Origin: Candidatus Alcyoniella australis
GTDB taxonomy: Bacteria; Lernaellota; Lernaellaia; JAVCCG01; Alcyoniellaceae
Assembly (NCBI GenBank): GCA_030765605.1
Contig: JAVCCG010000103.1
Span: 1 to 12,759, forward strand
Length of the DNA: 12,759 nucleotides
Direction: 5' to 3'
Of the stretch, positions 2,826-10,066 are shown piece by piece. Below the pieces are notes generated by a model that was not told the DNA's origin, did not search any database, and worked only from the letters and a program-made list of their open reading frames with translations. Position 1 is the stretch's first letter, and every line of letters starts with the position of its first letter. Position numbers and translations under genes: made by a program.

Positions 2826-4454
2826 CTATCGTGTCAGGACAGAGCAATCGACGATCAGCGGGCTGTCCGGGTTGCGGTAGAGGCCCCAGCAGTAATCCAT
2901 GAACAGGCCCAGCACGTAGGTATGGAACCAGGCCTCCACGGTCTGGTCTTCCAATCGCCTGCTGGTGGGTGGAAAGACCTCCAGCTGCTGATCCTCGGGA
3001 ACGGAATCATCCCACGGGTCCCAGTTTTCAAAGTCTTGATACTGGGTGATCGAGCGGAAGGCATAGGCCTGGATTAGGCGCACTTCGTCGTTGGTCAGGT
3101 AGTAGCCGGCGGTGGCCGACTGCAATAGATTGACCGCTATATCCCGAAAATAATTGTCAGGCTCGACGTCGATCAGCGACAGGTCGAGGGTCATATCGCG
3201 TTCAAAGCGTTTTTCGAGCCCATCGAGCCCCTTAAGCGCCAGGTCATTGTGGCCGCTGTGCAGGGCCAGGGCGATGTTGGCGATGTGAAGCGAGCGCATG
3301 ATGTGGGCGTTGGGCGGGTTGTTGATAATCGCGCCCAGCTCGTAGATGCCGGGGCCGTCGAGGGAATCGCAGTCGTTGTTCAGCGGGTCGCCGTAGGCCA
3401 GTAGAGCGCTGGCGCATTTGGCATTGCACTCCGCGTCGGGTACCAGCCAATCCCAGGCAGTGAACGAGACGATGTCGCCGATCCGCGCCTCCTCGGGCTC
3501 GGGGTCGATCCCCGGTCGATAGGCGTTGCCCTGGCTGTCCTTGGAGCGGATCAGGTAGGCGTTGTCCACGATGTCCCGGGCGAACAGCCGCAGCAGGTCG
3601 CGCGTCTCGCCGCAGGTCTGACGCACTTGGGGGTCTGCCGCGTGCTGCGCGGCATGATCGATGGAGACCGCGGTCTTGAACAAGTAGCCCAGGCCGTCTT
3701 TGGACCGGGTGTTGGTGACCCAAACCTCGCCCCAGTAGGGATTGTCCGTATAGCGAAAACGCGAGCAGTTCCAGCGGTCGTAGGGGTGGAACCAGTTGGA
3801 GTAGTCCACGTATTTCTTGCGGCCGTCGTGGGTGGTGTAGCCGTGGTTGAAGGCCGCCACGTTGCGCGCCATCAGGTGTTGCAGCGGGTCGGATTCGTCG
3901 TGGACCATCCCGAGCATCGTCGAGCTGATCCCGGCGCAGAACTGCTGCGTCAGCTCGCCCAGCAGCGGATCGCCGCTTGCCAAGTACCAGCCGATGGCCG
4001 AAGAGAGCAACAGCGAGTTGGACTTGAGGATGTTGTGCCCGCCGTGTTCCTCGGAATATTTGTGGATGATCGAAACCGTGTCGCCGTGCTTCTCGGCGTA
4101 GACCTCTCCCCACCACAGGCGGTAGTCACGCATGCCCGTGGAGGAGTCCACCCCGTGGCTCATCCGCAGCAGCCAGTCGGCGTAAGAACTTTGTTCGTAA
4201 AAATCGCGTAGCAGCTCGGAGAAGGCGATCAGCTGCTGGGCGGGAATCGGCTCGGAGTCGTCCTGACGGATGAAGCTGAAGGGCAGGCCGGGCGGATAGG
4301 GCTCGTCGTCGTCGTCCAGATCGTCGTCGTCGATCTCGTCCTCACCCGCATCGTCATCGTCGTGATCCGTTTGATCGACGCTGTCGCAGGCTGCCGCGGG
4401 CAGCAGTGACAGCACGAGCAGAATCAGCAGCAGTCTTCGTACAACGGACCCCAT
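2826..4454 (-). CDS. Uncharacterised lipoprotein with Asp-rich tether
   Basis: A 542-residue predicted lipoprotein of unknown function. Residues 1-23 form a lipoprotein signal: two arginines, a Leu-rich core and LPAAAC with C23 as the lipidated residue. Asp at +2 would, by the enterobacterial Lol rule, favour retention in the inner membrane facing the periplasm. Residues 27-51 are an acidic tether made largely of Asp runs. The rest (about 55-542) looks globular and mostly helical, rich in Trp, Tyr and His, and has several Cys that could pair in the periplasm (for example in AECNAKC and NNDCDS). The helix-turn pattern could suit an alpha/alpha toroid, as in some polysaccharide-active enzymes, but I see no diagnostic catalytic motif, so no activity is assigned. 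The ATG at 4454 lacks an obvious ribosome binding site and lies 9 nt after the response-regulator stop, which suggests translational coupling. Confidence 0.72.
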   Translation of the reverse strand: MGSVVRRLLLILLVLSLLPAAACDSVDQTDHDDDDAGEDEIDDDDLDDDDEPYPPGLPFSFIRQDDSEPIPAQQLIAFSELLRDFYEQSSYADWLLRMSHGVDSSTGMRDYRLWWGEVYAEKHGDTVSIIHKYSEEHGGHNILKSNSLLLSSAIGWYLASGDPLLGELTQQFCAGISSTMLGMVHDESDPLQHLMARNVAAFNHGYTTHDGRKKYVDYSNWFHPYDRWNCSRFRYTDNPYWGEVWVTNTRSKDGLGYLFKTAVSIDHAAQHAADPQVRQTCGETRDLLRLFARDIVDNAYLIRSKDSQGNAYRPGIDPEPEEARIGDIVSFTAWDWLVPDAECNAKCASALLAYGDPLNNDCDSLDGPGIYELGAIINNPPNAHIMRSLHIANIALALHSGHNDLALKGLDGLEKRFERDMTLDLSLIDVEPDNYFRDIAVNLLQSATAGYYLTNDEVRLIQAYAFRSITQYQDFENWDPWDDSVPEDQQLEVFPPTSRRLEDQTVEAWFHTYVLGLFMDYCWGLYRNPDSPLIVDCSVLTR

Positions 4455-4463
4455 CGCGCGATG

Positions 4464-4847
4464 CTACAAGTTAAAACTGTTGTTGTCACCTGCGGTGCGG
4501 ATGCGTGCGATCAAGACCTTGGGGCTGAACGGTTTGGTGATGTAGTCCTCCGCGCCGAGCTCCAATCCGGCGATCACGTCGGAGTCGTCGCCCTTGGCCG
4601 TGAGCATCAGGATCGGAATTCGCGAGGTCTTGGCGCCGTTCTTCAGCGCCTTGCAGACCTCGAGCCCTCGAGGCCGGGCAGCATCAGGTCGAGCACCATC
4701 AGATCGGGCAGGCTCGCGCGCCCTGCTCAACGCCCGTTCTCCCGAGGTCACGCATTCAACCTGATAGCCCTCCTTGGTCAGGTTGTATTCGATTAGCTCG
4801 AGAATCGCCTCCTCGTCGTGGACGATCAGTATCCGTTGCTTGGCCAT
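4464..4847 (-). CDS. Single-domain response regulator with compensating frameshifts
   Basis: CheY/PhoB-type receiver domain of 127 residues with no output domain. The start MAKQRILIVHDEE, PILMLTAK (switch Thr) and DYITKPFSPK (conserved Lys) identify the family. The central segment after RARE (residue 45) to about residue 61 reads as unrelated Pro/Arg-rich sequence. In the next frame the same DNA encodes LPDLMVLDLMLPGLEG, the expected receiver core with the phospho-acceptor Asp codon at 4688-4690. Restoring two bases near 4712 and one base between 4664 and 4665 recovers a normal receiver of 128 residues. As written, the protein lacks its phosphorylation site. His10 also replaces the first acidic residue of the usual metal-binding pair. 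GGGAG precedes the ATG. This is either two sequencing or assembly errors or a recently decayed gene. With the frame restored it would be a phosphorelay output partner of unknown target. Confidence 0.75.
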   Translation of the reverse strand: MAKQRILIVHDEEAILELIEYNLTKEGYQVECVTSGERALSRAREPARSDGARPDAARPRGLEVCKALKNGAKTSRIPILMLTAKGDDSDVIAGLELGAEDYITKPFSPKVLIARIRTAGDNNSFNL

Positions 4848-5035: not shown

Positions 5036-6778
<1,743 letters not shown>

Positions 6779-6782
6779 TTTG

Positions 6783-6792
6783 CTCCCCCTCC
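6783..6792 (-). promoter_or_regulatory. Ribosome binding site deciding nuoEF start
   Basis: On the - strand the sequence GGAGGGGGAG, which begins in the fdhA stop codon, lies 4 nt (from its last base) ahead of ATG 6778. This strong site fixes the diaphorase start downstream of the fdhA stop and removes a 29-residue frame extension that has no family similarity. Confidence 0.75.
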
Positions 6793-9482
6793 TAGGCGTC
6801 GGCTTTGACGATGCGCGCTGCGCAGACTTTGTACTCAGGAATGTTGGCCACCGGATCGATCGCATCGTTGGTCAACATGTTGGCTGCGGCCTCGGCAAAG
6901 TGGAAGGGAATGAAGATCGAGCCGCGTGCCACACGCGGGGTAAGCATCGCCTTGGTGGTGATCTCTCCGCGCCGGGTGGCGACCTTGATCATCTCGCCGT
7001 CCGCAATGCCTTTCTCTTTGGCATCCAAGGGGTGGATCTCCACGTGGCCGCTTGATACCAGGGCGTCGAGAATCGCCGAACGCCGCGACATGCTGCCGGT
7101 GTGGAAATGCTGCAAGATCCGGCCGGTGCTCAGAACCATGTTCCATTCATCGTCGGTCTGCTCTGCCGGAGGCTTGTAGGTCATCGGCGTAAGCACGCCC
7201 AGGCCGCGTGAGAACTTGTCTTTGTGCAGGTATACGGTGCCCGGATGCTCGGCATTGGGACACGGCCACTGAATGCCCACGTCACGAAGCCGCTCGAACG
7301 ACAGGCCCGCGTATGAAGGAGTCAGGTCGGTGACCTCTTTAAAGATCGCCTCGGGAGTGCGCGCGAACTCGTGGCCGAACAGCTTGGCCAGGTCGGCGAT
7401 GATTTCGTAATCGGGCTTGGTCTCGCCGCGTGGCTTGAGCGCCACGTTGCTCAGCTGGACCCGGCGTTCGGTGTTGGTGACCGTTCCGAGCTTTTCGGCG
7501 AACGATACCGCGGGCAACACAACGTCGGCGATCGCCGTGGTCTCGGTGTTGACGATGTCCTGCACCACCAACAGGTCGAGTTTATCGAGACAGTGCTTGA
7601 CGTGATTGAGGTTGGGGTCGGAGACCATCGGGTTCTCGCCCATAACGTACAGCGCCTTGATCTGCTCGCCGCAGGCCGGGATCATCTTGGTTAGGGTCAA
7701 GCCCGGGTTGGGGTTGAGCTCCACGCCGCCCCAATATTCGCTGAACTTCTTAATTGCGTCGGGGTTGTTTACCGGCTGATATCCGGTGAAGACGTTGGGC
7801 AGACCGCCCATGTCACAGGCGCCCTGCACGTTGCTCTGACCGCGCAGCGGATTGACTCCGCCGCCCTCGAATCCGAGGTTGCCGGTGATCAACTGGGTGT
7901 TGACGCACGATTTGACGTTGTCCACGCCGTGGCTGGACTGGGTGATGCCCATGCAGTAGTACAGGGCCCCGCGTCCGCTGGTGGCGTAGAGCTTGGCCGC
8001 TTCGTAAAGATCCTCGGGCGTAATGCCGGCGAGCTCTTCGACCTTCTCGGGGGTGAAGAATTCGAGGCTCTGGCGGTACTCCTCGAAGTTCTCGGTGCGC
8101 GAGTCGATGTAGGCCTGGTCCTGCCAGCCCTCGAGCAGAATGATGCGTTGCATTCCACAGAGCAGGGCCACGTCTGAGCCGTTCTTGTGTCGCAGCCAGA
8201 TGTCGGCGAACTCGACCAGGTCGGTGCGGCGCGGATCGCAGACGATCAGCTTGCAGCCGTGATGTTTAACAGCCTGCTTGAGCATCGAGCCGAACACCGG
8301 ATGGTTCCAGGTGGTGTTGGTGCCGATGGCCAGCACGATTTTGGAGGAAGTAACTTCGGCCATGCTGTTGGTCATGGCGCCTGAACCCAACGTGGAGGCC
8401 AGACCGGCCACCGTTGAGCTGTGTCAGAGTCGTGCGCAGTGATCGACATTGTTCGTGCCGATCACCGCGCGAGCCAAACGCTGTAGTTGGTAGTTCTCTT
8501 CGTTGGAAACCTTGGCCGAGGCCAGAAAGGCGATCGAGTCGGGGCCGTGCTCGGCCTTGATCGCACCGAGTTTGTCCGCAACATATTGCAGAGCCTCGTC
8601 CCAGCTCGCGGGCGTAAGCTCGCCGTTTTTGCGGACCAGGGGGGTGGTCAGGCGTTGATCGGAATCGACGAAGTCCAGTCCGAAGCGCCCCTTGACGCAG
8701 AGCATGCCCTTGTTCGGCTGCTGCTCCCAATTGCCCTCGTGCGCCATGGCGAAAGCGTAGTGCTCGTCTTTGGTGTGAAAGTCGATCTGGCAACCCACAC
8801 CGCAATAGGGGCAGGTGACCTTGGTGGCCTTGGTTTCCCAGGTGCGCACCGAGCCGTGGGTCTGCTTGAGGGTCAGGGCTCCAACCGGGCAGACCTGAAC
8901 GCACTCACCGCACTGCACGCAGGTTGAATCACCCATCGGCAGATCGTTGTCGCAGATAACCTTGGCTTCGTTGCCGCGGTAGCCGAAGTCCAGCACCTGG
9001 TTGACGACCACGTTTTGGCAGGCTTGGACGCAACGGCCGCAGTGGATGCACTTGTTTTCGTCGCGCACGATGCCCTCGGACGATTCGTCACGAGGATGCG
9101 GCTCGACGTCGATCTGGAAAGCGGGACGCTCAATGCCCAGGCTATAGGCCATGTCCTGCAACTCGCAAGCGCCGTTGGCCTGGCAGGAGATGCAGTTGTG
9201 GTTTCCCTCGGCCAACAACAGCTCGACGATCATCCGGCGCGTTTCGAGCACCTGCGGCGAGTTGTTGAGGATTACCATTCCGTCCTTGGCCTGCAATGCG
9301 CAGCTCTCCTGGAGACCGCGCATCCCCTCGACCTGGACAACGCAGGCGCGACAGCGCCCGGCCTTGCCGGTCTTGGCGTGCCAACACAGAGCGGGGATAT
9401 AGACTCCCGCCGCCTTTGCAGCCTGTAGTACGGTCTGACCCGGCTGTGCCGCGATCGTCTTACCGTCAATGGTGATTTGCAC
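6792..9482 (-). CDS. fdhA: Selenocysteine formate dehydrogenase, NAD-linked large subunit
   Basis: Molybdenum- or tungsten-dependent formate dehydrogenase alpha subunit, 896 residues with selenocysteine at 353. A UGA (8424-8426) interrupts the frame inside HCARL-U-HSSTVAGLA, exactly where family members have Sec or Cys, and homology continues unbroken. Domains: a NuoG/FdsA-like [2Fe-2S] domain (C33, C44, C47, C61); a His/Cys [4Fe-4S] motif (H95, C97, C100, C106); two ferredoxin [4Fe-4S] sets (C145, C148, C151, C155; C188, C191, C194, C198); the catalytic-domain [4Fe-4S] (C224, C227, C231, C262, then K264); and the bis-pterin domains. R547 in RGQSNVQGACDMG matches the conserved active-site Arg, and H354 follows Sec. 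The start is GTG at 9482, after GGGAGG at a short spacing. No Tat signal, so cytoplasmic. It interconverts formate and CO2, and its partner is the diaphorase gene 13 nt downstream. Confidence 0.95.
8394..8426 (-). promoter_or_regulatory. Sec UGA codon and SECIS-like hairpin
   Basis: Eleven nucleotides after the UGA a hairpin can form: GG (8412-8411) with CC (8395-8394), a U-U mismatch, then GGCC (8409-8406) with GGCC (8400-8397), closing the loop GGUCU (8405-8401). From memory, the E. coli fdhF SECIS has the same 11-nt distance and a loop containing GGUCU, with a U in the equivalent bulge. This hairpin would bind SelB and direct Sec insertion. The sequence also encodes the conserved VAGLAS, so part of the similarity is protein-driven. 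Confidence 0.78.
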
Positions 9483-10066
9483 AATACCTCCCGTTGCTAA
9501 TGTTGCATGGGCGTCGCTTTATTTCGGTGCAACCTCAAACAAGCATTTAGGTCGGATCTAAGTTTTCTCCCACTGTCCGATCGCTTTCGATTGTTACGAA
9601 AACAAACGATGTCTCTATACAGATAGTCAATAGGTCCATTTGATAATTTCAATGATATGACGTTGAGTGAACAACGAAAAAATCGGCTGAATAATACGCC
9701 AGGATCAACAAATTGGCAAATGAAAAAAGCTATTCCGTTATGCTGAAAAAGATATAGTTGGCCTTTGAAAATAAAGGAGATATCACTTTTGTTGCATGCG
9801 TGTTAAGTACCCTGAAATATCATTATATTAATGGTTGTCATTGGAGTGTTTCGATAGGCTGAAACAGCGATTCTCACAATAAATATTAGCCTGTAAAATT
9901 AAATTTAACGGCAAGGGAACATTGGGAGTTAGGCGCGGCCTACGCTGCTCATCCCATGCCGTGTTCCGGTCGGGTTTTCGGTTGCTCTGGATAGATAATA
10001 ATCTGATAATGCCGTCTTGAATTGATTAACGGGCTGGGTTTGGACCGACCCAGGCAGGGGCGGGGT
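9483..10066. other. AT-rich divergent intergenic region
   Basis: 584 bp without a supportable gene, markedly AT-rich between GC-rich genes, holding the control regions of fdhA (- strand) and the beta-propeller lipoprotein (+ strand). Short inverted repeats are visible: TTGTT/AACAA at 9591-9605, CGTTG/CAACG at 9661-9676 and TGTTTC/GAAACA at 9847-9866. In the fdhA leader, TTGCA/TGCAA arms could pair just upstream of the ribosome binding site. I found no convincing sigma-54 or sigma-70 promoter on the - strand and no tRNA-Sec gene. Confidence 0.6.
9982..10010 (+). promoter_or_regulatory. Possible promoter of beta-propeller lipoprotein gene
   Basis: TTGCTC (9982-9987), a 17-bp spacer, and GATAAT (10005-10010, five of six matches to the -10 consensus). 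Transcription would start near 10017, about 50 nt before the ATG at 10067. The -35 box matches the consensus poorly, so the call rests on the -10 box and the spacing. Confidence 0.4.

Follow-up and report, generated by a model that had tools for sequence, protein, structure and literature searches.

A predicted selenocysteine-containing formate dehydrogenase with a fused NuoE-NuoF subunit in Candidatus Alcyoniella australis

The fdhA-fdhB locus

Analysis of a 12,759-nucleotide stretch of contig JAVCCG010000103.1 (the window) revealed two adjoining genes, fdhA and fdhB, encoding the components of a formate dehydrogenase (FDH), together with the features listed in Table 1. ORF calling under the standard code yields two minus-strand frames in place of fdhA, one of 352 residues (8424-9482) and one of 539 residues (6792-8411). 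When the TGA between them is read as U, a single 896-residue frame runs from 9482 to 6792 on the minus strand. This TGA, at residue 353, is the only one among the 896 codons, and the frame contains no further stop or frameshift. The first-pass annotation, which did not state the strand, had described frames of these two lengths split by a single in-frame UGA, and both were recovered as described. The plus strand showed no comparable frame across these positions.

Residues 222-891 of fdhA match the formate dehydrogenase alpha model TIGR01591 (NCBIfam, 812.6 bits, cut-off 666), and both this match and the Pfam matches run across the UGA. Aligning the joined 896 residues, a check proposed earlier, gave an end-to-end alignment with FDH alpha subunits. 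The UGA, found in the context NNVDHCARL-U-HSSTVAGLA, falls on the Cys/Sec column of this alignment, in agreement with the catalytic position originally assigned to it from CARL-U-HSSTVAGLA. We conclude that the two neighboring frames are almost certainly one FDH gene with an internal UGA read as selenocysteine. The second gene, fdhB, begins 13 nt past the fdhA TAG stop, behind an AGGAGG sequence, and matches both TIGR01959 and TIGR01958 above their cut-offs within a single ORF.

The minus strand of the window also encodes a 127-residue response-regulator receiver without an output domain (4464-4847). The middle segment carrying the phospho-acceptor motif (LPDLMVLDLMLPGLEG) falls in a different frame: two frame shifts about 17 codons apart, which compensate each other and are either real or assembly errors, remove the phosphorylated Asp. 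A lipoprotein-like protein of 542 residues with an Asp-rich stretch past its signal peptide (2826-4454, minus strand) had no NCBIfam or Pfam match.

Table 1. Features of the fdhA-fdhB locus in window coordinates.
Feature	Position	Strand	Details
fdhA, predicted Sec-containing formate dehydrogenase alpha subunit, 896 aa	6792..9482	-	GTG start 9482, TAG stop 6794-6792
fdhA N-terminal NuoG-like [2Fe-2S]/[4Fe-4S] region	about aa 1-205		Pfam Fer2_4, NADH-G_4Fe-4S_3, Fer4
fdhA molybdopterin catalytic region	about aa 218-891		Pfam Molybdopterin, Molydop_binding
In-frame UGA, predicted Sec353, Mo/W ligand position	8424..8426	-	Homologue alignment, Cys/Sec column
Shine-Dalgarno-like GGGAGG ahead of fdhA GTG start	9483..9496	-	By eye
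SECIS element, Rfam SECIS_3 (RF01989)	8371..8429	-	50.2 bits, E 2.8e-9, end to end
Apical stem-loop GGCC-GGUCU-GGCC	8409-8397	-	Loop 8405-8401
fdhB, NuoE-NuoF fusion, 580 aa, NAD(P)H/FMN diaphorase subunit (by homology)	5036..6778	-	

SECIS element, decoding machinery and codon conservation

The score of the SECIS element lies below the Rfam gathering score of 63 bits, despite the end-to-end match. Folded alone, the element is unexceptional (z = -1.0), and since the single-sequence fold gave no significant signal, it was assessed by comparative tests. The GGUCU loop is present in 47 of 50 other TGA genes versus 7 of 35 Cys genes encoding the same Gly-Leu (Fisher p = 9e-13, a generous value, as the test treats related sequences as independent), and the 4-bp apical stem is complete in 47 of 50 other TGA genes versus 5 of 46 Cys genes. 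At synonymous positions, TGA genes preserve the loop and stem and Cys genes do not. Covariation, computed over 51 homologues, gave 18 double-changed stem cells against 2.9 in shuffles; stem cells were paired in 97.4% of cases, compared with at most 53% for slid partners. Apical stem variants among the homologues include GGCC/GGCC, UGCA/UGCA, GGCA/UGCC and CGCC/GGCG. At columns 17-31 of the stem, the window has a U.U mismatch in place of the U-G or U-A pair of nearly all relatives.

A published model of bacterial SECIS elements comprises a 3-9 nt loop with a G in the first two positions, an upper stem of 4-16 bp, 16-37 nt between UGA and loop and an MFE of at most -7.5 (Fig. 2A, PMC13188914). 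The window element agrees with this model, having the 5-nt loop GGUCU, a 4-bp GC stem and 18 nt between UGA and loop; its apical part of 22-28 nt folds at -10.7 to -10.9 kcal/mol. The loop begins 21 nt past the U of the UGA, as it does at codon 140 of Escherichia coli K-12 fdhF. A SECIS-like hairpin with a GGUCU loop at the fdhF distance had been proposed from the window alone; loop and spacing do match fdhF, and the hairpin covaries across the homologues.

The genome (4.29 Mb, 157 contigs, 98.05% complete, 0.05% contamination) was searched with family models. It encodes selB (355.8 bits, cut-off 242), selA (579.8 bits, cut-off 268), selD (386.1 bits, cut-off 125) and tRNA-Sec (76.1 bits, gathering score 47), the last also identified by ARAGORN as tRNA-SeC with anticodon TCA. 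The machinery (SelA, SelB, SelC and SelD) that the first-pass annotation took the UGA to imply, and whose absence it would have held against a selenoprotein, is thus present above curated cut-offs. The selD gene (L010, G000:C133) has its own in-frame UGA at the known Sec site (GAG-U-ACK). A second UGA-containing FDH (L123, G000:C119, about 101.5 kb; HQARI-U-HSSTVASL) holds the one remaining SECIS_3 match of this genome (43.9 bits), with the loop AGUUU where the window has GGUCU, and its leader is twin-arginine (TAT)-like (MKVTRRKFITVSGA). FdhD is encoded in the same genome. SelA was found in 5 of 7 genomes examined from this little-known bacterial class, which therefore decodes selenocysteine.

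Among 97 homologues compared at the Sec353 codon, drawn from genome contigs and whole genomes of many phyla, 51 (window included) carry TGA and 46 carry TGC or TGT for Cys. A genuine stop, due to nonsense mutation or sequencing error and resulting in a pseudogene or two separate polypeptides, would be in line with the splitting of fdhA under the standard code and with a contig-only assembly (157 contigs) as the source of the base calls at the TGA (8424-8426). This explanation is nevertheless very improbable, because the same Sec/Cys column carries TGA in dozens of unrelated genomes, 50 other homologues in all, including the nearest gene, which is 83% identical and comes from another genome of the same class. 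The preserved synonymous positions of the hairpin, the full Sec machinery and 896 codons otherwise free of stops and frameshifts likewise speak against it. Still less probable is a general code change or suppressor through which UGA would be read as Trp or Cys. Genomes in which UGA encodes Trp or Gly exist; here, however, selB and selA contain no internal UGA, selD has one only where Sec is known to occur in it, the long window ORFs give normal translations under table 11 and a SECIS element follows the UGA of fdhA. Throughout the conserved genes examined in the genome, in-frame UGA occurs nowhere except at Sec sites.

Selenocysteine insertion at UGA353 is thus the preferred reading. SelB carrying Sec-tRNA-Sec would bind the GGUCU hairpin downstream of codon 353, and selenocysteine would be inserted there in place of termination. 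In the tree, the clade holding the window fdhA comprises 33 rows, 31 with Sec and 2 with Cys. The window gene and L103 (Sec) are sister to the two Cys genes, both from Planctomycetota (L022/L023), which are also the nearest relatives outside the class. As the Cys of this pair is nested in an otherwise Sec clade, the tree reads most simply as a Sec-to-Cys change in these two genes. Sec/Cys exchange is documented for FdhA (PMC13188914, PMC1794560), and the tree fits the change from Sec to Cys described in PMC1794560.

Among the selenoprotein families of bacteria, FdhA is the most widely distributed (PMC13188914, PMC1794560), and the window gene accordingly adds nothing new on recoding. It is a correct but ordinary finding, the commonest kind of bacterial selenoprotein, and joining the two frames restores a gene that standard annotation would report as two pieces.

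The NuoE domain of the fused beta subunit

The NuoF part of fdhB contains the glycine-rich FMN/NADH motif as well as the [4Fe-4S] cysteines. In the NuoE domain, three of the four [2Fe-2S] cysteines are gone: where complex I has QVCTTTPCML and VECLGAC, fdhB has QVDTNIPAML and VEDLGSC, the latter with a new cysteine three residues further on. The first pair, the aligned CxxxxC, is absent from all eight fused beta subunits of the clade (window, L103, L024, L037 and L134-L137; the seven besides that of the window belong to other genomes), two of which (L135 and L136) retain the second cysteine pair. All four NuoE cysteines are kept in the complex-I-like homologues compared. Where the alpha subunit beside such a beta is readable at the site, it carries UGA (6 of 6).

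At one locus (L164, G356:C16), a fused beta belonging to this clade adjoins a 602-residue protein in place of an FDH alpha. This neighbor matches FDH alpha over its N-terminal 204 residues only, as a HydA-type hydrogenase subunit would. Because a beta subunit is found here beside a HydA-like protein and not an FDH alpha, the arrangement suggests that the fused beta may be an NAD(P)H module shared between enzymes. We see about even odds that these proteins form a small unrecognized subfamily, in which a fused NuoE-NuoF diaphorase subunit that has lost the NuoE [2Fe-2S] cluster (equivalent to N1a) acts as a compact NAD(P)H module, in most cases with Sec-containing FDHs and once beside a hydrogenase-like protein. 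A literature search for NuoE-NuoF fusions without the cluster cysteines found nothing. This NuoE domain is the only unusual part of the finding, and fdhB offers a natural experiment on whether NAD-linked electron transfer requires the off-path [2Fe-2S] cluster found in NuoE-type domains.

Predicted enzyme and comparison with known systems

Taken together, we place at roughly 97% the probability that fdhA is a selenoprotein gene for the alpha (catalytic) subunit of a cytoplasmic NAD(P)-linked FDH, with Sec at UGA353 and the NuoE-NuoF beta as its partner. The enzyme fits the FDH1/FdsABG type in the NuoG-like N-terminal Fe-S region of its alpha subunit and in its adjoining NuoF-like FMN subunit with a NuoE-like domain; it departs from this type in that the NuoE-like domain has one of the four [2Fe-2S] ligand cysteines. 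By analogy, Sec353 would ligate the Mo or W of a bis-MGD cofactor, at which formate would be oxidized or CO2 reduced. Electrons would pass from the N-terminal Fe-S clusters of the alpha subunit to the NuoF-like FMN domain of the fused beta and on to NAD(P), the coenzyme predicted from homology to NuoF.

An electron-bifurcating FDH of the HylABC type, as opposed to a simple NAD(P)-linked one, appears unlikely, though L022, the nearest homologue of the alpha subunit outside the class, adjoins a NuoE encoded separately and a HydB-type NuoF that carries a ferredoxin region at its C-terminus. By contrast, fdhB ends at the NuoF [4Fe-4S] region with no added ferredoxin-like domain among its Pfam matches, its NuoE domain is missing cluster cysteines, and no ferredoxin-type gene adjoins it among the ORFs of the window. 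The simple NAD(P)-linked enzyme is accordingly favored.

As a possible link between this enzyme and the methyl branch of the Wood-Ljungdahl pathway, FTHFS (PF01268) was sought genome-wide (98% complete) and not found, although an acetyl-CoA synthase gene (CdhC/AcsB; L129, G000:C88) is present. Formate assimilation through the methyl branch is thus unsupported, and oxidation or formation of formate is a likelier role for the enzyme than CO2 fixation through that branch.

The best match among solved structures is the alpha subunit of Methylobacterium extorquens FDH1 (MeFDH1, PDB 7vw6/7e5z), which aligns with fdhA residues 4-896 (E 9e-217). Like the window enzyme, MeFDH1 pairs an FdsA-like alpha with a diaphorase beta, in its case as a heterodimer (PMC10869683). 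Its alpha subunit has Cys at the metal ligand (HCTRLCHAS), whereas the window has HCARL-U-HSS. For the MeFDH1 beta, a [2Fe-2S] cluster has been reported in addition to [4Fe-4S] and FMN (PMC10869683), in contrast to the window NuoE domain with three of its four ligand cysteines missing. By its description, not by sequence, the window enzyme can also be likened to the NADP-linked FDH of Moorella thermoacetica, a tungsten-selenium-iron protein with an alpha subunit of 96 kDa and a beta subunit of 76 kDa (Yamamoto et al. 1983, as cited in PMC13040438). According to PMC13040438, two genes encode this 96 kDa alpha, which may reflect a UGA split like that of the window.

E. coli FdhH (fdhF, PDB 1aa6) is homologous to fdhA in the catalytic region but has no NuoG-like region at its N-terminus and acts within formate hydrogenlyase. 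Its gene and fdhA are identical in UGA, GGUCU loop and spacing (+21 in both) and at 29 of the first 42 nt from the UGA; the apical stem of fdhF differs in having a bulged U where that of the window has the U.U mismatch. Rhodobacter capsulatus FdsABG (PDB 6tg9/6tga) resembles the window enzyme in its FdsA-like alpha with a NuoG-like N-terminus and its NuoF- and NuoE-like partners. Its gamma and beta subunits are separate chains, whereas the window beta is fused. To our knowledge, the R. capsulatus enzyme is not a selenoprotein.
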